DNA of 33,288 bases from Desulfonauticus sp. (GCA_030950395.1 JAUZRP010000163.1:1-33288), one strand, 5' to 3'. Shown: positions 17,191 through 29,553, counted from the stretch's first letter. Numbers and translations: made by a program. Notes: generated by a model from the sequence alone, not told the origin.

Positions 17191-17226
17191 ACGTCCTTGC
17201 AACATAGTGGTTGCAAGGACGTTTTT
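17191..17226 (+). terminator. Rho-independent terminator of the TauE unit
   Basis: ACGTCCTTGCAAC (17191-17203) pairs perfectly with GTTGCAAGGACGT (17210-17222) around a 6-base loop and is followed by T's. It touches the 3' end of the opposing regulator gene. No T-run follows on the minus strand. Confidence 0.9.
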
Positions 17227-18565
17227 AATTATCTAGATTATACAATTTTAATTTTCTCCACAAAGATGTTCTACTAATACCAAGAATCTTTGCAGTTTTA
17301 TTTTTATTTCCTTTAGTATAATTTAATACCTGCAAAATATATTCCATCTCCATTTCTGCTAGAGTTTTTAATTGAATTTCTTTCAAATTAAAATTTGTTT
17401 TTTTGAATCTAGCAGGTAAATGTTCTATGGTTATTTCGTTTTGATCTGCTATTATAACAGATCGTTCTATGGCATATTCTAGTTCTCTTACATTACCAGG
17501 AAAAGGATAGTTTTTAAAAATTTCTATAACTTTGGGAGAAATTTTGTTAATATTTTTATTAAATTCTTTGGAATATTTATTTAAAAAATAATAGGCAAGA
17601 AGTGGAATGTCTTCTTTTCTTTCTCTCAGAGGTGGTAATTCCAGAGAAACTGCATTTAATCTATAATATAAGTCTTCTCTAAATTTACCTTGATTTAGTT
17701 GCTGAGTAAGATCAACGTTGGTAGCAGCTATAATTCTTACATCAACTTTTATTTCCTCGTGTCCACCATAGGGAATAAAAGTTTTTTTCTCAATAAATTT
17801 TAAAATCATACTTTGAATCATTAAAGGAGCATGTTCTATTTCTTCTAAAAATAAAGTCCCTCCTTGCACTACTTCTAATAATCCTTTTCTTTTTCTTTTG
17901 TTAGTCCCTATATCTTCGTATTCTTCTCCAAAAATTTCTTTTAATAAAATTTCAGGATTAAAGGTATTACAATTGATAGCTATAAATTTGTTATTTTTTC
18001 TAAAACTAAGATTATGGATCGCTTTGGCAGTGAGTTCTTTTCCTGTTCCTGTCTCCCCAATTATTAAAATAGGACAATCTAAGATTGCAATTTTACTTAA
18101 ATTTTTCTTTAATTTTTGAATTTTATTAGTCTCACCTATTATACAAGGAAAATTGTTTATATTTTGGTTGTTATATTTATTGTAGAGGTAAGAAGACTTT
18201 AACTTGTCAATAATTTCAAACAAACTAGTTAAATCATTGTTATTTATTATGTGTAACTTGTTCAAATTAAATTCATTGTCATCAGAGAATAAGTTTTTGT
18301 CTTGGATGGATTTATCTTTTAGTAAATAAATTATATTTATATCGGATTGAAGTTGATTAATTTGGGAAATTAGATTTTGGTGTGTTCTTAAAATATTATC
18401 TTCTAATATAACTAAATTTAAAGTCTGTTGAGATAAAATTTGTAAAGTTTCTTCATAAGATGAACTTATCCAGAGAATACTCTTTTCTAAGTTTAGTCGT
18501 TTGGCGATGTTTTTAAAAAATTTTAAATCTGTGTGAATTATTAAAATTTTAAAAACCTTATGCAC
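17225..18565 (-). CDS. NtrC-family AAA+ regulator with altered GAFTGA loop and degenerate receiver
   Basis: A 446-residue protein. Residues 1-120 have a response-regulator shape (KILIIHTDL, LVILEDNIL, IIYLLKDKS), but glutamate (E55) stands at the phospho-acceptor place, so it is probably not phosphorylated. The AAA+ domain has Walker A GETGTGKE (about 170-177), the arginine region FREDLYYRLN, and PFPGNVRELE. The loop that should read GAFTGA reads EDIGTN (217-222) with spacing unchanged, and Walker B is LFLEEIE in place of LFLDEIG. A Fis-type helix-turn-helix (NKTAKILGISRTSLWRKL) ends the protein. GAFTGA contacts sigma-54, so this may act on another polymerase form, as TyrR and some NtrCs do. 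I use GTG at 18565, 8 bases after GGAGAT; a farther TTG would add a lysine-rich, hydrophobic tail. It is divergent from cbpA. The target is unknown. Confidence 0.85.
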   Translation of the reverse strand: MHKVFKILIIHTDLKFFKNIAKRLNLEKSILWISSSYEETLQILSQQTLNLVILEDNILRTHQNLISQINQLQSDINIIYLLKDKSIQDKNLFSDDNEFNLNKLHIINNNDLTSLFEIIDKLKSSYLYNKYNNQNINNFPCIIGETNKIQKLKKNLSKIAILDCPILIIGETGTGKELTAKAIHNLSFRKNNKFIAINCNTFNPEILLKEIFGEEYEDIGTNKRKRKGLLEVVQGGTLFLEEIEHAPLMIQSMILKFIEKKTFIPYGGHEEIKVDVRIIAATNVDLTQQLNQGKFREDLYYRLNAVSLELPPLRERKEDIPLLAYYFLNKYSKEFNKNINKISPKVIEIFKNYPFPGNVRELEYAIERSVIIADQNEITIEHLPARFKKTNFNLKEIQLKTLAEMEMEYILQVLNYTKGNKNKTAKILGISRTSLWRKLKLYNLDN

Positions 18566-18947
18566 CCGTATTATCTCCTTTTGGGATTTTTTTAGACAAT
18601 AATTTTTCTTTTTAACCAGATTGTTTGTTTTTTTACTTTTGAAACGTTTATTACTTATTAGAAATAAAGCGATAAAATAAACTGTTAAGAAAGACAAGGT
18701 TTGAAAAAGGATATTTCTGGAGTATTGAATAAAAATTGTAACAATGATTGATGAAAATTTCAGATTGAGGACACCTTTTGGAAGTCAGATCATGCTCTGG
18801 GTTGAATTTTGTCCTTAAAATCTACACAAAAATTGTGCCAAAACTTCTTGACTCAGGTTTATTTGGACTTATCTTTTTATGTAATTTCGTTTTCATGTGT
18901 TCTAATCTGCTCTAAAAAAAAGAATTTTTAGGAAAAGAGAGGGGAGT
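18566..18947. other. Divergent control region between the NtrC-like gene and cbpA
   Basis: A 382-base region with no gene. A candidate promoter for the chaperone operon is TTGACT (18848-18853), 16 bases, then TATCTT (18870-18875). I searched for the CIRCE operator of HrcA (TTAGCACTC-N9-GAGTGCTAA) and for a sigma-32 type CTTGAAA/CCCCAT pair and saw neither. The first 130 bases could instead be an N-terminal extension of the regulator gene from a TTG at 18697, which I judged less likely. Confidence 0.4.
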
Positions 18948-23207: not shown

Positions 23208-24386
23208 ATGCAAGAGCTAAAAGGTTTTGTGTTTGCTACAGCACAAGGTGGTTTTAAATATAGCCATAGGGATGATATAGGCCTAATTTACGTGCCAGAA
23301 GGGGCAGTTTGGGCTGGAGTTTTTACGCAAAATAAATTTCCAGCAGCTCCTGTTCTTATTGCCAAAAAGCGTTTACAAGAAAATTCCAAAATAAAGGCCG
23401 TGCTGGTAAATGCCGGTCAGGCCAATGCCTGTACAGGAGAAAGGGGTATTAAGGATTGCCAATATACCTTGCAATTACTGGCAAAGGTGTTTTCCATTTC
23501 CGAAAAGGAGATAGTACCTGCTTCTACTGGAGTTATTGGAGAATTTTTTGATTTGACCAAATGGGAAAAGGTAATAGATAAATTAAAACTAAATTTGGGC
23601 CAGGCAGATTGTACAGATTTTGCCAAAGCTATTCTTACTACAGATCGTTATCCAAAACTAATTTACAAAGAAATAACCTTGCAACAGCAGACTGTTCCTT
23701 TAGTTGGCATAGCCAAAGGAGCAGGTATGATTGCTCCAAACATGGCTACAATGCTTGCTTTTATTTTGTGTGATTTACAAATAGATCCTCTCTGGTGGCA
23801 AAACACATTATCTGAAGTAGTAGATAAAACCTTTAATAGAATTAGCGTTGATGGAGACACTTCTACCAACGATACTGTGTTGGCTTTGGCCAGTGGAAAA
23901 CGGAACTTACAATTAAGCGAACAAGACTTGCTTTTGTTAAAACAGGGGGTATATGAACTGTGTTTTGAACTTGCTTATCTTATTGTCCAGGATGGAGAAG
24001 GAGCTACAAAGGTCGTTCGTCTTCAGGTTATAGGGGCAACGAACACTAAAGAAGCAGAGCAGGTGGCAAGAACTATCTCGTCTTCTTTATTGGTAAAAAC
24101 AGCTTTTTTTGGTGAGGATCCCAATTGGGGCAGAATCGTGGCTGCTTTGGGACGAAGTGGGGTATCTTTTGATCCGGATAACATAAAAATATTTTTGGGT
24201 AAGCAAGAAGTGTTTGCTAGGGGAATACCGGTATTGAAGGATATTGATACTTTTTTGCAGGGGTATATGCAAAAAAAAGATTTGGAATTAACTATAGATT
24301 TAGGCCAGGGCAGAGCCTGTTATGAACTTTTGTTTTCAGATCTGAGTTTGGATTATGTGCAATTAAATGGAAGTTATAGGAGTTAA
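23208..24386 (+). CDS. argJ: Bifunctional ornithine acetyltransferase / N-acetylglutamate synthase
   Basis: A 392-residue ArgJ. Key blocks are the AVLVNAGQANACTGERG loop, VPASTGVIGE, and KGAGMIAPNMATMLAF, in which T181 is the expected N-terminal nucleophile of the beta chain after self-cleavage between A180 and T181. GDTSTNDTVLALASG and ANWGR-type FGEDPNWGRIVAALGRSG follow. The enzyme moves the acetyl group from N-acetylornithine to glutamate, and bifunctional versions also use acetyl-CoA, serving arginine synthesis. AAGGGG lies 10 bases before the ATG. The stop directly abuts the stop of the opposing MBL gene with no spacing. It is a single gene here, with a palindrome about 85 bases upstream that could bind ArgR. 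Confidence 0.96.
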   Translation: MQELKGFVFATAQGGFKYSHRDDIGLIYVPEGAVWAGVFTQNKFPAAPVLIAKKRLQENSKIKAVLVNAGQANACTGERGIKDCQYTLQLLAKVFSISEKEIVPASTGVIGEFFDLTKWEKVIDKLKLNLGQADCTDFAKAILTTDRYPKLIYKEITLQQQTVPLVGIAKGAGMIAPNMATMLAFILCDLQIDPLWWQNTLSEVVDKTFNRISVDGDTSTNDTVLALASGKRNLQLSEQDLLLLKQGVYELCFELAYLIVQDGEGATKVVRLQVIGATNTKEAEQVARTISSSLLVKTAFFGEDPNWGRIVAALGRSGVSFDPDNIKIFLGKQEVFARGIPVLKDIDTFLQGYMQKKDLELTIDLGQGRACYELLFSDLSLDYVQLNGSYRS

Positions 24387-25259
24387 TTAAAAACTAAGTT
24401 CTAAACCAGTATAGGCTAATGTAGTTGGAAAGTGTTCTTTTAAAATATTGCTAGCAGTTACTCCTGTGCAGTGAGCAGGTAAGATGTGGGAAATATTATA
24501 TAACTTTAGGTGGAGGCAAAGTTTAGTTATTTCTTCTGATGTTGCGTTATAGAGATGAAGCCCACCTATTAGAATAAGAGGTTTGGTGTAAGCCTCTGTT
24601 AGCTTTAAGATGTAGTCAATAGTATTTAAAACTCCAGAATGACAACATCCTGTAATAATCAGCAAAAATTTAGGATGATTAATCCATAAACTTTGATCGT
24701 CTGGTATAATATCTCTTCTTTGTCCTTTTATATCTTCAAAAAAATATTTAGTGTGTTCTTGAAAGTGTTTTCTGGGAATAAATCCTGTAACTCCCACTCC
24801 AGAAAAGAGAAGTAGCGGATTAGAATTCCAAAAAATATTGTTTTTTAGCCTAGCAAGGGCTTTTTTACTTTTAGATGGCATGCCAATGGGTCTAATTTTG
24901 TTTTGTTTTAGAGAATATCTGGGAATAATTGCATTGGGATGAAGAATGAGTTGAGCTTGCTTTGTTAAACTAAGAGCTTTAAATAAACCTCCTGTATGAT
25001 CATAATGACCATGGCTTAAAACAATGAAGTTAGTTTTGTTTAAATTTATTCCTAACCTTTGGCCATTTTTAGTAAAATAACTTGAACAACCAGTGTCAAA
25101 TAAAATGTTTTTTTCATCAATTTCTAGCCATAGACTCAAGCCATGCTCAGAAAAGAGCTGGTCATCTCGATTTTTTAAATTATCTATCAAAAAAGTTATT
25201 TTGACTGACTGTGAGATTTCAGAGCGTCCGAAGACGCTCTTTTGCTCTAATGATCGCAT
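24387..25259 (-). CDS. Metallo-beta-lactamase-fold protein of the dihydropterin-synthase-like group
   Basis: A 290-residue MBL-fold protein and the last gene of the metal-carrier operon. The metal motif is LSHGHYDHTG (H83, H85, D87, H88), preceded by ILFDTGCSSYF and followed by FSGVGVTGFIPR, ITGCCHSGVLNTI and a late IGGLHLYNAT. This is the group whose archaeal members include the dihydropterin-ribofuranosyl-aminobenzene phosphate synthase. Genes of this group recur beside NifX and MinD proteins in anaerobes, so a role in cluster handling is possible; the true substrate is unknown. The only ATG that fits is at 25259, inside the preceding gene (13-base overlap). It gives an unusual 18-residue leader, part of which is encoded by a UUCG-capped hairpin. 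The core similarity begins at VKITFLIDN. Confidence 0.85.
   Translation of the reverse strand: MRSLEQKSVFGRSEISQSVKITFLIDNLKNRDDQLFSEHGLSLWLEIDEKNILFDTGCSSYFTKNGQRLGINLNKTNFIVLSHGHYDHTGGLFKALSLTKQAQLILHPNAIIPRYSLKQNKIRPIGMPSKSKKALARLKNNIFWNSNPLLLFSGVGVTGFIPRKHFQEHTKYFFEDIKGQRRDIIPDDQSLWINHPKFLLIITGCCHSGVLNTIDYILKLTEAYTKPLILIGGLHLYNATSEEITKLCLHLKLYNISHILPAHCTGVTASNILKEHFPTTLAYTGLELSF
25221..25240 (-). other. UUCG-capped hairpin at the start of the MBL gene
   Basis: On the minus strand AGAGCGTC, TTCG, GACGCTCT form a perfect 8-bp stem with a C(UUCG)G tetraloop, among the most stable RNA loops. It lies 19 bases after the MBL start codon and 7 bases after the stop of the preceding gene. On the minus strand no T-run follows. 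It may mark an RNA-processing site or limit expression of the last gene. Confidence 0.7.
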
Positions 25260-25585
25260 ACGTTTTGACCGGTCTGAAGTGTTCCGTTTAAATAGGCCAA
25301 AATAATGTTTTCTGGCTTGTCTGCAGGCGCTCCCACAATAACTTCTATACCTAATTGGTTGAACAAACTAATTGCCTTATGCCCCATACCACCTGCAATA
25401 ACTAAGTTGACTCCTTGATCTTTTATCCATCTTGGAAGTAAGCCAGGTTGATGAGGGGGAGCATCTACATAATCCACATTTACTATTTCTTTTGTATCAG
25501 GATTAGCTTCTAGTAAAGCAAACTTTTCACAATGTCCAAAGTGTAAACTTAACTTATCTCCTGCCATTGGAATTGCAATTTTCAT
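25247..25585 (-). CDS. NifX/NifB-type metal-cluster carrier protein
   Basis: A 112-residue protein of the NifX/dinitrogenase-cofactor fold (the ribonuclease-H-like beta-alpha domain). The start MKIAIPMAGDKLSLHFGHCEKFALLE, with H-x-G-x-C in FGHC, is typical of the group, and GVNLVIAGGMGHKAISLFNQ and GIEVIVGAPADKPENII close the fold. Homologues carry Fe-Mo, Mo-Cu or plain Fe-S clusters to target proteins. The gene lies between the MinD-B ATPase (15-base gap, AGGAGG ribosome site) and the MBL gene (13-base overlap). No nitrogenase structural gene is present, so the cluster is probably not FeMo-co. Confidence 0.88.
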   Translation of the reverse strand: MKIAIPMAGDKLSLHFGHCEKFALLEANPDTKEIVNVDYVDAPPHQPGLLPRWIKDQGVNLVIAGGMGHKAISLFNQLGIEVIVGAPADKPENIILAYLNGTLQTGQNVCDH

Positions 25586-25600
25586 AATAAAAATCCTCCT

Positions 25601-26497
25601 TTAATGTATATTTTCAATAATTTTCTCCCAAATTAGCTCTAATCTATCGTGTAATTCTTTATTTATTTCCACCACTGGCTGTAATTTCAATTGCGCTTCG
25701 GTAAAAGATTGATCATAGGCAATGGAATCTAAGAGCAGGCATTTTTGTTTCTGGCCTAATTCTTTTATTTGAGAAGCAACTTCTGGATTTAGATCCCACT
25801 TGTTAATCAATAGAGCAGATGGAATTTTAAAGTGATTTATTAGTTGTAAAATACGTTCAAAGTCGTGTAAGCCCGATAAAGTAGGTTCTGTGATCACAAT
25901 CACAAAACTACTGCCTGTAAGCGAGGCAATTACAGGACACCCTATGCCAGGTGGTCCATCAACAATTACATAATCTAATTTTTTTTCCTTAGCAACTTCT
26001 CTGGCATATTTTCTGACCAAAGAAACCAATTTTCCTGAATTTTCAGCTCCAATGTGTAATTTTGCATGCACCATAGGACCATATTGCGTAGAAGAAAACA
26101 TTATTTCTCCACATTCTTGTTCTTTAAAATCTATAGCCGAGACAGGGCAAAAATGCACGCACACACCACATCCTTCACAGTCTATAGGATCTATACGAAA
26201 GGTATCTCTAGAAGGATTACTTTGCTTTATTACTGCGTCAAATCTACAATATTCTTGACAAAGCCCACAAGCAGTACAATCATCTTGCCTAATCTGAGCA
26301 AGTTTACCAGATACAAAAGGTTGTTTTTTTTGAATGTTAGGGTGTAATAATAGATATAAATTGGCTGCATCTACATCACAATCTGCAAGCACTGCTTGTT
26401 TTTTTTGTAAAGCAGCAAAAGAGGCTGTTAGGCTGGTTTTGCCTGTGCCTCCTTTGCCACTTAAAATTACTATTTCTTTTATTTTTTGCTTTTCCAT
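25601..26497 (-). CDS. MinD/Mrp-type ATPase with internal ferredoxin domain (second of two)
   Basis: A 298-residue P-loop ATPase. The deviant Walker A is LSGKGGTGKTS (residues 12-22) and VDGPPGIGCPVI supplies switch 2. A 2x[4Fe-4S] ferredoxin insert lies at about 72-120: C74, C77, C80, C84 and C107, C110, C113, C117, each as C-x2-C-x2-C-x3-C. The combination is known from the Desulfovibrio orange-protein complex and from similar anaerobe clusters, where two such ATPases work together. A role in loading or moving a metal cluster is inferred. I start at ATG 26497, 5 bases after GAGGA, rather than TTG at 26509. The preceding ATPase gene ends 16 bases upstream. Confidence 0.92.
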   Translation of the reverse strand: MEKQKIKEIVILSGKGGTGKTSLTASFAALQKKQAVLADCDVDAANLYLLLHPNIQKKQPFVSGKLAQIRQDDCTACGLCQEYCRFDAVIKQSNPSRDTFRIDPIDCEGCGVCVHFCPVSAIDFKEQECGEIMFSSTQYGPMVHAKLHIGAENSGKLVSLVRKYAREVAKEKKLDYVIVDGPPGIGCPVIASLTGSSFVIVITEPTLSGLHDFERILQLINHFKIPSALLINKWDLNPEVASQIKELGQKQKCLLLDSIAYDQSFTEAQLKLQPVVEINKELHDRLELIWEKIIENIH

Positions 26498-26513
26498 ATT
26501 TGTCCTCAAGTCA

Positions 26514-27362
26514 TTAGAGTGTTGAATTTTTAGCTAATTTTTGGACCTGTTGCCAGAGATCGATAAAAAGATTTTTGTATTCAGGTGCAACATCAACAAG
26601 TATTTTTCCTTTAGAATAATGCTCTGCAATACGTCTTTGATTGGGAATTTTTATTAAAATAGGAATGTTTTTTTCTTGGCAATATTCATCTATAATAGAT
26701 TTTCCTGGTTCATTTTTGTTTATTATCACTCCAAAGGGAATATCCAGCTCTAATACAGTTTCTACAGCCAATTTTAGATCGTTTAAACCAAAAGGAGTTG
26801 GTTCTGTAACCAAAATAATAAAATTACTCCCTTTGAGAGTAGCAATAACAGGACAAGATGTGCCTGGAGGAGCGTCCAAAATTACTAGTTTTTGAGGATC
26901 AATATGTTTTTTTAAGCTTTTTATTAGGGGAGGAGCCATTGGATGAGCAATCTTTAGTCTGCCTTCTATTAGAGAAATTTTGCCGTTTTTGTAAAAACGT
27001 AATTCTCCAATAGGATTATCTATTTCAAACAAAGCCTTTTCCGGACAAACTTTTATACAACCGCCGCAACTGTGACATAATTCTGGGAAAATTAAAGGAA
27101 CAGTATTAAAGGAAACAATAGCATTAAACTCGCATATTTTGGCGCATTCTCCACATTCTTTGCACAAATCCTCTTTAACTTTAGGGATAGGAACGTTTAC
27201 AGTATGTTGTTTTATTGGTTTGCCCTGAATAAAAATATGAGCATTTGGCTCTTCTACATCACAGTCTAAGAGCAAAATTTCTTTATCTATTGCCCGGGCT
27301 AAATTAACAGATACAGTTGTCTTGCCTGTACCTCCTTTTCCAGAAGCAACTGCTACAATCAT
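26514..27362 (-). CDS. MinD/Mrp-type ATPase with internal ferredoxin domain (first of two)
   Basis: A 282-residue paralogue of the next ATPase. Walker A is ASGKGGTGKTT (6-16), and LDAPPGTSCPV is switch 2. The ferredoxin insert has C67, C70, C73, C77 and C96, C99, C102, C106, and the second cluster is followed by the usual proline (CPEKA) while the first has glutamate. VTEPTPFGLNDLKLAVE is shared by both ATPases. They are clearly related yet differ in insert length, so they probably form a heterodimer with unlike surfaces. The ATG lies 1 base after the stop of the NifX-like gene before it, so translation is coupled. Confidence 0.92.
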   Translation of the reverse strand: MIVAVASGKGGTGKTTVSVNLARAIDKEILLLDCDVEEPNAHIFIQGKPIKQHTVNVPIPKVKEDLCKECGECAKICEFNAIVSFNTVPLIFPELCHSCGGCIKVCPEKALFEIDNPIGELRFYKNGKISLIEGRLKIAHPMAPPLIKSLKKHIDPQKLVILDAPPGTSCPVIATLKGSNFIILVTEPTPFGLNDLKLAVETVLELDIPFGVIINKNEPGKSIIDEYCQEKNIPILIKIPNQRRIAEHYSKGKILVDVAPEYKNLFIDLWQQVQKLAKNSTL

Positions 27363-27363
27363 T

Positions 27364-27723
27364 TTACCAATGTCCTTCTACGTTTGCATTGTCTAATAAA
27401 CTTACCTGATTTTGTAAAAATTTATCAATGGCTTCTTGGACTGTATTGACATTAACAGTATAAACTTTAATACCTGTTTTAGACAACACCTGAAAAGCTT
27501 TTGGTCCACAGTTAGCAGTTAAAACAGCCTCTACTCCTTCTTTGGCTATATTTTGAGCAGTCTGTACTCCTGCACCTTGCATAGCAGTTAGATTTTGTTC
27601 GTTATTTATAACTTTAAATTCTTTGGTATCCGTATCGTAAATAATAAATTGAGGTGCTCTTCCAAATCTTTGTTCAAAAGGTGCACTTAAGTCCTTACCT
27701 GACGTGGGAATTGCTATTTTCAT
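27364..27723 (-). CDS. NifX-type metal-cluster carrier, orange-protein-like
   Basis: A 119-residue protein. MKIAIPTSGKDLSAPFEQRFGRAPQFIIYD begins the domain; GVQTAQNIAKEGVEAVLTANCGPKAF has the glycine-cysteine loop and GIKVYTVNVNTVQEAIDKF the last strand and helix. It belongs to the small NifX-like group that includes the orange protein of Desulfovibrio, which holds a mixed Mo-Cu sulfide cluster. Whether this one binds Mo, Cu or an iron-sulfur cluster cannot be told. It precedes the first MinD ATPase by 1 base. A stable hairpin lies in the 95-base spacer on its 5' side. Confidence 0.9.
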   Translation of the reverse strand: MKIAIPTSGKDLSAPFEQRFGRAPQFIIYDTDTKEFKVINNEQNLTAMQGAGVQTAQNIAKEGVEAVLTANCGPKAFQVLSKTGIKVYTVNVNTVQEAIDKFLQNQVSLLDNANVEGHW

Positions 27724-27772
27724 CGTTTTTATCTCCTTTTGTTTTTATGATGTGTGTAAATGTTGAATCAGC

Positions 27773-27811
27773 TAAGACGCCTTTGTCTTCTTTTGGAGCA
27801 AAGGCGTCTTA
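27773..27811 (-). other. Stable intercistronic hairpin inside the metal-carrier operon
   Basis: TAAGACGCCTTTG (27773-27785) and CAAAGGCGTCTTA (27799-27811) form a perfect 13-bp stem with a 13-base loop. It lies between the DUF5320-like gene and the NifX-like gene. No T-run follows on the minus strand, so it is more likely an RNA-stability or processing element than a terminator. Confidence 0.7.
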
Positions 27812-27818
27812 TAAAAGG

Positions 27819-28157
27819 TTATTTTTCTGCCTCAAGTTCCTGCAATCTCTTTTTGATAGCTTCCAGCTCTTGTTCTATAAGTTTGGCCTCTTGCTCTAGG
27901 TATTGTTTTTCGTTTGCAGGACTAAAAGTGGTAGCTGGTTGGGGGATTGCTGCTCCAAATCTGGCTCGAAATCCCCAGCCTGCTCCAAATCCAAATCCTC
28001 GTCCCCAACCTCTACCAAAACCTCTGCCCCAGCATCTAAATCCTCTACCAAAACCACCTTTTACAAATCCTGGACTATCATATCCTGCACAAAAACCAAG
28101 ACCTCTACCTGTTCTTGGACCATAACCAAGTGGTCCTGTTCTATCTCCTCTTGGCAT
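27819..28157 (-). CDS. DUF5320-like glycine/arginine-rich protein
   Basis: A 112-residue protein. The N-terminal signature MPRGDRTGPLGYGPRTGRGLGFCAG is that of the DUF5320 group. Residues 30-70 are a repeat of Gly, Arg, Phe and Trp (GRGFRCWGRGFGRGWGRGFG) with two cysteines overall, and residues 80-112 are a charged coiled coil (EQEAKLIEQELEAIKKRLQELEAEK). Such proteins accompany NifX-like carriers and MinD ATPases in anaerobes, but their role is unknown. The coiled coil suggests an oligomer, and the Gly/Arg region may bind nucleic acid or other proteins; both are inferences. It has a perfect ribosome site, GGAGGT. Confidence 0.85.
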   Translation of the reverse strand: MPRGDRTGPLGYGPRTGRGLGFCAGYDSPGFVKGGFGRGFRCWGRGFGRGWGRGFGFGAGWGFRARFGAAIPQPATTFSPANEKQYLEQEAKLIEQELEAIKKRLQELEAEK

Positions 28158-28207
28158 ATCTCACCTCCTAATAAAAAAAATTTTACTTATTGCTTAGTTT
28201 TTAGTTT

Positions 28208-28588
28208 TTAAAAATGGTTAGAAATTTCTTCCACTTGCCAATTTTCATCTACCCATAAAGAAATAATTGGCACATCATATTTTTCACGGAGAAATTGAAC
28301 TGCCTTTTGGAGCTGTTGTAACTGGACATCTTTTGACACTGGGTTTCCAGCACAGTCATAATGCCCTACCACCGCTATTCCTACAGACGAGTGTTTTTCA
28401 ATAGAAACGTTGACTCTGGCAAGAATAGAATCAATTAACGTTTTATTTTTTTGCTCTGCTAAGATTAAGATAGGACCAGGTTCAGTGATGGAGTCAACGT
28501 AATCTACGTTGAAACGTTTAAGTAAATAATTAATTACAGGTAGTTGAACTCGTCCATCCATACAATTAATTACCGTACAAAATTTCAT
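28208..28588 (-). CDS. Small beta-carbonic-anhydrase-like protein
   Basis: A 126-residue protein. It keeps the active-site layout of beta-class carbonic anhydrases: C9, then D11 and R13 (INCMDGRV) as the first zinc ligand and the Asp-Arg pair, and H76 and C79 (GHYDCAGNP) as the other ligands. It is about 60-100 residues shorter than typical beta enzymes. The zinc site therefore looks complete, but the surrounding core is reduced, so true CO2 hydration is uncertain. I start at ATG 28588, with GGGG 8 bases upstream. Neighbours are the zinc-ribbon NifX protein (17 bases) and DUF5320. A role in metal delivery rather than bicarbonate supply is possible. Confidence 0.78.
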   Translation of the reverse strand: MKFCTVINCMDGRVQLPVINYLLKRFNVDYVDSITEPGPILILAEQKNKTLIDSILARVNVSIEKHSSVGIAVVGHYDCAGNPVSKDVQLQQLQKAVQFLREKYDVPIISLWVDENWQVEEISNHF

Positions 28589-28605
28589 CTTATCCCCTTG
28601 TTTTT

Positions 28606-29178
28606 TTATTTTCTCGTTAATCCTGTACCACATTTAGGACATTTTTTTTCAAAACAAGGCACTCCCCGCAAGTGAGGCTCTAAGTATCCACATTGGGGAC
28701 AAATACACTCTCCATCTTGAGTGCCGCGCATAGGTCCACCTGCCCTACACCTACCTCCTCCCTGTCCTCTACCACCTCCCATACCTCTACCTTGTCCTTG
28801 ACCGGGCATATACCACCTCCGTTGTTTAGGTTTAAAGCAACCTGGCATGGCAAATAGGTTGTTTCCCTCCAGTTGATTGGCTAAAAACGCAGCTTTTACT
28901 TCCTCAATAGAGCCCGCTATAAAAGGAATCACTTTTATCCTGCGTTGAATTAAAAATTCCCAGACAAAACGAGAAATAGCTCCACACACAAGAGTATTTA
29001 TACCCAGTTGTTCGATTTGCTTAACCTTTTCAATGCAAAATTCATCAGCAAATGGAGCCAAAATTACCTGTTCGGTCTTCACTATTGCTCCATCTTCTAT
29101 TTCTATCACTTCCAGCTTTCTAGATACGTCAAAAACCGGAGCTATCCTACTTTGCCATACCGTAAATCCTACTTTCAT
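28606..29178 (-). CDS. NifX-like domain fused to a Gly/Arg linker and a C-terminal zinc ribbon
   Basis: A 190-residue protein and the first gene of the operon. Residues 1-100 are a NifX-type domain ([55 protein letters not shown]). Residues 120-150 are a low-complexity Gly/Arg/Gln linker ([17 protein letters not shown]). The end is a zinc ribbon with C-x2-C twice ([25 protein letters not shown]). I take ATG 29178, which matches how the family begins; the earlier ATG at 29196 adds six residues and neither has a good ribosome site. No sigma-54 promoter was seen upstream. The NifX part probably binds a cluster. Confidence 0.85.
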
Positions 29179-29429
29179 CACTTTGATTACAAGCATTTTT
29201 TATGCCAAAGTTTATTTTTTGTTTAACCATTTGAGATCATTAATATTTTTTTTTACACACGACACGATTAATTTCAAAACAGTAGTAAATTTGCAACTAA
29301 TGATTTTTATTAGTAGCTTTTTCGCTACTTTAGTGGTGATAAGTGTAAGGTTTTTTCTTTATTTTTAAATAAAATTTGGTTAGATTTAGTCTTAAAAGCT
29401 AATTTAAGAAGAATATTAGCCTTAAAAGG
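29179..29429. other. Control region of the metal-carrier operon
   Basis: About 250 AT-rich bases between the divergent carrier operon and waaF. AGTAGC (29312-29317) and GCTACT (29324-29329) form a small hairpin. On the minus strand TTGCAA, 18 bases, then ATTAAT could be a weak promoter. I see no gene. Confidence 0.35.
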
Positions 29430-29527
29430 TCATTGGTAGTTAGTAATTGGTAATTGGGGGTTAGGCAATTGGGCTATAGGCTATAGGGCATGGGTGATGG
29501 GACATGGGGGATGGGCTATGTTGTATA
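29430..29527. repeat. 14-unit degenerate heptamer array, G-rich on +
   Basis: Exactly 98 bases in one 7-nt phase: TCATTGG, TAGTTAG, TAATTGG, TAATTGG, GGGTTAG, GCAATTG, GGCTATA, GGCTATA, GGGCATG, GGTGATG, GGACATG, GGGGATG, GGCTATG, TTGTATA. The left third is the TAATTGG type seen in reverse at 15450-15505, and the right part is the GGCTATA type seen in reverse at 344-448, joined without loss of phase. It ends 26 bases before the waaF start. Confidence 0.9.
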
Positions 29528-29553
29528 GTGCTCTTAACCAGGAGTGAAGTTTT

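Follow-up and report, generated by a model that had tools for sequence, protein, structure and literature searches.

We analysed a 33,288-nucleotide stretch of Desulfonauticus sp. DNA (GCA_030950395.1 JAUZRP010000163.1:1-33288; hereafter the window), which is contig C72 of an assembly of 2.2 Mb in 172 contigs (96.9% complete), and in it a set of eight minus-strand genes running from 29178 to 24387. We consider it likely that these genes form an operon of the orange-protein (ORP) type for handling a metal-sulfur cluster, switched by sigma-54, in which a carbonic-anhydrase-like (CA-like) gene rides as a passenger and to which the carrier Mrp is supplied in trans. The protein families, the gene order, the conservation of promoter and operator, the unlinking of the activator, the loss of Mrp and the insertion of the CA-like gene can be read from the DNA itself; a function in metal-sulfur-cluster handling is likely, judged from the families together with published biochemistry.

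An eight-gene operon and its relatives

An earlier, sequence-only reading of the window had described eight genes of named families on one strand. All eight open reading frames (ORFs) are real genes lying head to tail, in the order NifX1-zinc ribbon, Pro_CA_2, DUF5320, NifX2, MinD-A, MinD-B, NifX3 and metallo-beta-lactamase-fold protein (MBL), and the family matches hold. NifX1 (28606..29178, minus strand, as for every gene of the operon) combines a NifX domain, a Gly/Arg-rich linker and a C-terminal zinc ribbon (CxCPxC ... PC ... CPxCG). The NifX/Nitro_FeMo-Co family PF02579 matches NifX1 with an E value of 3e-6, NifX2 (27364..27723) with 2.7e-25 and NifX3 (25247..25585) with 1.2e-20. NifX2 is ORP/Orp8-like (2wfb, an ORP, 4e-18; 1rdu, 9e-22), and NifX3, a stand-alone ORP domain, matches positions 265-365 of MrpORP (NF041136, E 1.1e-36). 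By its family matches, MinD-A (26514..27362) is a deviant-Walker P-loop ATPase with an inserted 2x[4Fe-4S] ferredoxin domain; MinD-B (25601..26497) is a second ATPase, with an inserted 4Fe-4S dicluster domain. The DUF5320 protein (27819..28157; PF17253, 3.7e-29) is Gly/Arg-rich with a C-terminal coiled coil, and a literature search on its function found nothing. MBL (24387..25259) matches PF00753 at 1.2e-11, PDB entry 2p4z at 7e-30 and TM1679 (3h3e) at 2.3e-28.

The genes had been described as overlapping or separated by short gaps. The only true overlap is that of NifX3 with MBL (13 nt), and MBL is, by our prediction, translationally coupled to NifX3. The overlaps at the CA-like gene and at MinD-B disappear once the starts are revised: the CA-like gene most likely begins at 28588, behind the Shine-Dalgarno (SD)-like GGGGATAAG, and MinD-B at the ATG at 26497, behind the SD-like TTGAGGAC, rather than at the TTG at 26509. 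A clear or plausible SD precedes six of the eight genes, the exceptions being NifX1 and MBL. The start of NifX1 is fixed because MKVGFTVW forms the first strand of its NifX domain, with no SD ahead of it. At its far end the operon converges with argJ (plus strand): the stop codons of argJ and MBL abut at 24386-24387, with no gap and no obvious terminator.

Related loci were collected by a contig scan with MinD-B, which returned 80; counts from them are lower bounds, as many contigs end early, and their phyla were read from the titles of metagenome-assembled genomes, whose bin names are approximate. The titles name Desulfobacterota, Acidobacteriota, Planctomycetota, Lentisphaerota, Nitrospirota, Omnitrophota and others. 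MinD-A adjoins MinD-B in every one of the 80 loci, accompanied by NifX2 in 67, NifX3 in 57, NifX1 in 47, DUF5320 in 39 and MBL in 21. The comparison of gene order proposed in the sequence-only reading recovers the MinD pair throughout, and the zinc-ribbon fusion and MBL repeatedly, but the CA-like gene never. The zinc ribbon, once taken for an addition, is ordinary in this cluster family: it is fused to NifX1 in both congeners and many other loci, and is a separate small ORF in others. Both congeners (G001, locus L120; G002, locus L121) have the order activator-NifX1-DUF5320-NifX2-MinDA-Mrp-MinDB-NifX3-MBL, from which the window species differs in three respects: the CA-like gene is inserted, the operon Mrp is lost and the activator is unlinked. 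We read the eight-gene set as a single-operon version of a widespread, ORP-related anaerobe cluster, a variant in its single-operon layout, unlinked activator, Mrp loss, predicted leaderless promoter and CA-like insertion, with defining parts that are already known.

Similar parts stand at a second place in the same genome (C119:24550-26418, or L003 1-1869; also L159 4709-5137). A small protein there has a Gly/Arg-rich start, a CICPxC...RGIPC...CPQCG ribbon as in the operon and a 2x[4Fe-4S] ferredoxin, and downstream of it lies a cation diffusion facilitator with a NifX domain fused to its C-terminus. In L030 (11405-14791), a second, divergent activator of the GAFTDA type lies beside another NifX1-DUF5320-NifX2 set, on a contig that also bears a first ORP-type cluster; this genome has two different versions.

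Sigma-54 promoter, proposed operator and unlinked activator

The operon had been thought to lack a sigma-54 promoter and activator, which proved incorrect: we found a promoter, a likely operator, rpoN (contig C141) and an ortholog of the activator (contig C46). The predicted -24/-12 promoter, TTGGCATAAAAAATGCT (GG-N10-GC; 29192..29208, minus strand), is located 14 nt upstream of the NifX1 ATG and places the transcription start near 29181, about 3 nt ahead of that codon. The same site lies 12-14 nt ahead of the ATG in L120, L121 and L124, the last from another family. The pattern TTGGCAYNNNNNNTGCW occurs five times assembly-wide and its reversed control four times, so the site alone proves little, and its weight comes from position and conservation. 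The proposed operator for the activator, an enhancer-binding protein (EBP), is a perfect palindrome, GTAGC-N6-GCTAC (29313..29328), centred at about -139 from the predicted start; a second, imperfect copy, GTTGCAAATTTACTAC (29282..29297, minus strand), lies 31 bp from the first. Two copies are likewise spaced at 31 bp in the congener locus L120, where one base of the second is mismatched. The 2.2-Mb assembly and G001 each contain a single perfect palindrome and G002 contains two, all of them preceding this operon or its ortholog; G023 has one ahead of the operon and another elsewhere. Clusters of other phyla have the motif at a similar position. Between the upstream region of the operon and the next gene, 29428-29530 is occupied by low-complexity, short GGGCTATAGGCTAT / GGGCATGGGTGATGGGACATGGGG-like repeats.

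Our survey of promoter and operator covered 40 clusters in which NifX1 could be recognised, and counted as a sigma-54 site one with at least 9 matches near the start. Such a site precedes the first gene in 36 clusters (2.45 expected from shuffles). A perfect palindrome is present in 10 (0.05 expected), and 21 have one with no more than a single mismatch (0.35 expected). All these figures are strong but not exact, the shuffles being mononucleotide and the species related and non-independent. The palindrome often comes as two copies 31-33 bp apart. Between the -12 C and the NifX1 ATG, 13 clusters, this one and others from unrelated phyla among them, have a gap of 12-14 nt; one has 18 nt and the rest 24-86 nt. 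Since sigma-54 transcription usually starts 11-12 nt from the -12 C, transcripts of the 13-cluster class would be leaderless. We judge it an even call whether a module of PAS-cysteine activator, GTAGC-N6-GCTAC operator and sigma-54 promoter has been kept with the operon across many phyla, with a distinct subset, this operon included, in which the transcript would be leaderless and the promoter fused to the start codon.

In 32 of the 80 loci, and in many relatives of the same order, the cluster has an activator of PAS-AAA+-Fis architecture as its neighbour. The ortholog of this activator here is unlinked, between ligA and mfd (C46:51351-52679; L157 8349-9680), and is 79% identical to the operon-linked activator of G001, 75% to that of G002 and 69% to that of G023. 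Its GAFTGA motif and helix-turn-helix (HTH) are intact, and its recognition helix, GIHKTTLFRK, is that of relatives that keep GTAGC-N6-GCTAC. This palindrome was not found in Desulfovibrio-like genera, where recognition helices are of the differing ITKDTLRRIL type; in L204, the palindromes that overlap the activator gene have the sequence GACGAA-TTCGTC. Helix type and palindrome thus vary together, which supports the pairing of activator and operator. The PAS domain bears a C-x8-C-x3-C motif that 42 of the 45 full-length activators keep; this motif is a candidate redox or Fe-S sensor. Another EBP, an AAA+-Fis protein encoded in the window (17225-18697, minus strand), was rejected as activator of the operon, with 43-45% identity over AAA+/HTH and no PAS match, versus 79% for the C46 ortholog.

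It could be argued that the operon is now constitutive and that promoter and operator are chance relics left behind when the activator became unlinked. The locus has indeed been reshaped, with the activator no longer adjacent and the operon Mrp lost. We regard this explanation as unlikely, however, as the operator has kept perfect arms and the promoter its sigma-54 spacing despite divergence of the flanking DNA, the activator retains the identity and motifs given above, and the region scanned ahead of the first gene contains no strong sigma-70 promoter.

The carbonic-anhydrase-like gene and Mrp

The CA-like gene (Pro_CA_2; 28208..28588; PF20393, 4.4e-47) sits between NifX1 and DUF5320, in this species only of the three congeneric operons. 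The sequence-only reading had counted it as part of the set, which the comparison contradicts: the protein is absent from all 80 related loci and from the orthologous operons of both congeners. With this genome counted in both cases, PF20393 is present in 4 of 61 relatives and in 17 of 395 genomes drawn from the phylum. In the 16 other genomes (phylum and order) in which the gene was found once flanks had been fetched, it stands in unrelated neighbourhoods, never beside ORP genes. No homologs were found in phages and plasmids. The protein is short (126 aa, versus about 200 residues in the classical beta-carbonic-anhydrase fold), its match to Pro_CA (PF00484) is weak (E 0.0028), and a single-sequence AlphaFold model, with a pLDDT of 51, was too poor to use for the fold. 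C9, D11, R13, H76 and C79, the Cys/Asp-Arg/His/Cys set of the metal site, are invariant across 14 homologs, and because these presumed zinc residues are invariant the protein may be an active enzyme. The 0.4-kb insertion, with its fitting SD, is unlikely to be a two-sided assembly error.

We also considered whether the CA-like and zinc-ribbon proteins could be true subunits of an extended ORP machine, contributing for example bicarbonate or zinc chemistry. Its position in mid-operon, its own SD, a GC content of 0.354 versus 0.345 for the whole window and an intact Cys-Asp-His-Cys set would suit a CA-like subunit, and the zinc ribbon is conserved. The absence of the CA-like gene from every related locus, and from beside the cluster in the other genomes examined, makes such a machine improbable. 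In our comparison nothing ties the gene to the metal-cluster machinery, and it looks like a recent, species-specific passenger, an oddity of this species.

The remaining Mrp gene lies on contig C45, after proS. We rejected the possibility that it had moved out of the operon, as it is the ortholog of the proS-linked second copy in the congeners (86% versus 74%); it follows that the operon copy, between MinD-A and MinD-B, was lost. In many relatives a NifX3-type domain is fused to Mrp, and the fused MrpORP is an Fe-S carrier that delivers its clusters to ORP proteins in vitro (PMC6345978).

Proposed working and comparison with known systems

The idea, put forward in the sequence-only reading, that two MinD-ferredoxin ATPases power a metal-sulfur-cluster machine fits the families and the published type of layout. 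The most likely function is that of an Fe-S or metal-cluster carrier complex under a sigma-54 activator, with predicted cofactor and co-transcription. The unlinked PAS-AAA+-Fis activator would sense a redox or metal signal through its conserved PAS cysteine motif, bind GTAGC-N6-GCTAC about 139 bp upstream and drive RNA polymerase-sigma54 at 29192-29208, the transcript starting about 3 nt ahead of the NifX1 ATG. The NifX proteins would hold the cluster and the two MinD-ferredoxin ATPases would reduce, load or move it, with DUF5320 and the Gly/Arg-rich zinc-ribbon tail serving as adaptors. Mrp, normally fused to or beside NifX3, would come in trans from the proS-linked copy, and the CA-like gene would be a recent passenger that gained the expression of the operon. 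Published ORP work proposed a role in cell division and saw polar MrpORP (PMC6345978, PMC3897727). That the MinD-like ATPases here serve mainly in positioning or cell division, and not in cluster handling, has in our view a slim chance of being correct, since both ATPases bear two 4Fe-4S sites amid three NifX proteins, which points to cluster chemistry.

Several points weigh against a sigma-54-switched, ORP-type operon, in addition to the limits of the shuffles given above: (i) activator binding, co-transcription, the protein complex and the nature of the cluster are all matters that we infer; (ii) the -12 element, ATGCT, is one base off TTGCA; (iii) the D. vulgaris operator was not matched, and the Desulfovibrio-like palindrome near the activator gene differs in sequence; and (iv) the matches of NifX1 and DUF5320 to Desulfovibrio proteins are weak. 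MrpORP (P-loop plus ORP domain) is represented in the operon by its NifX3 half only, which lowers the claim to a complete ORP set.

Ever since the discovery of the Mo-Cu protein in Desulfovibrio, what the ORP system does has been an open question, and the gene set with its sigma-54 switch is common to many anaerobic phyla. The operator sequence pinpoints the operon within a genome, and naming a likely signal receptor, the cysteine-bearing PAS domain, makes the inducing condition testable. Telling the conserved parts from the CA-like passenger narrows what to purify.

Among known systems, the NifX/NifY/NafY proteins and the C-terminal domain of NifB share the cofactor-binding PF02579 fold family with the operon, but the match to NifX itself is weak (E 0.0089) and, in line with the earlier statement that no nitrogenase gene is near, the whole assembly has no PF00148 match. 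The putative carbonic anhydrases of Pro_CA_2 (PF20393) match the CA-like protein over its full length with invariant presumed zinc ligands, the copy here being the only one found inside an ORP-type operon. The link to the ORP system of Desulfovibrio, also drawn earlier, is strengthened by two loci from the same order, L204 and L207, in which the same families take the published divergent layout: MrpORP-Orp8-NifX1-activator (GAFTDA) faces DUF5320-MinDA-MinDB, as in D. vulgaris, and GAFTDA is the variant listed for the D. vulgaris activator DVU2106 (PMC4641369). The ORP complex of that species comprises DVU2103-2105 and DVU2107-2109; by position, DUF5320 may correspond to Orp5 and NifX1 to DVU2107. 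Its orp operons depend on sigma-54 and DVU2106, and their activator sites lie at -131 and -88 (PMC3897727); the operator centre here is at about -139. The operon described here differs in being a single one, as in the congeners, rather than two divergent ones, with the activator unlinked rather than adjacent, the Mrp half outside, a zinc ribbon on NifX1, added MBL and CA-like genes, a leader that is almost absent and an operator unlike the palindromes of Desulfovibrio-like relatives. NifX3 matches the C-terminal domain of MrpORP (NF041136) end to end but stands alone, the P-loop half being the separate proS-linked gene. Shared with D. vulgaris are the paired MinD-ferredoxin ATPases (Orp3 and Orp4 type), an Orp8-like NifX, the C-terminal domain of MrpORP and, as judged here by sequence, a sigma-54 promoter with upstream palindromic sites and a PAS-AAA+-Fis activator.

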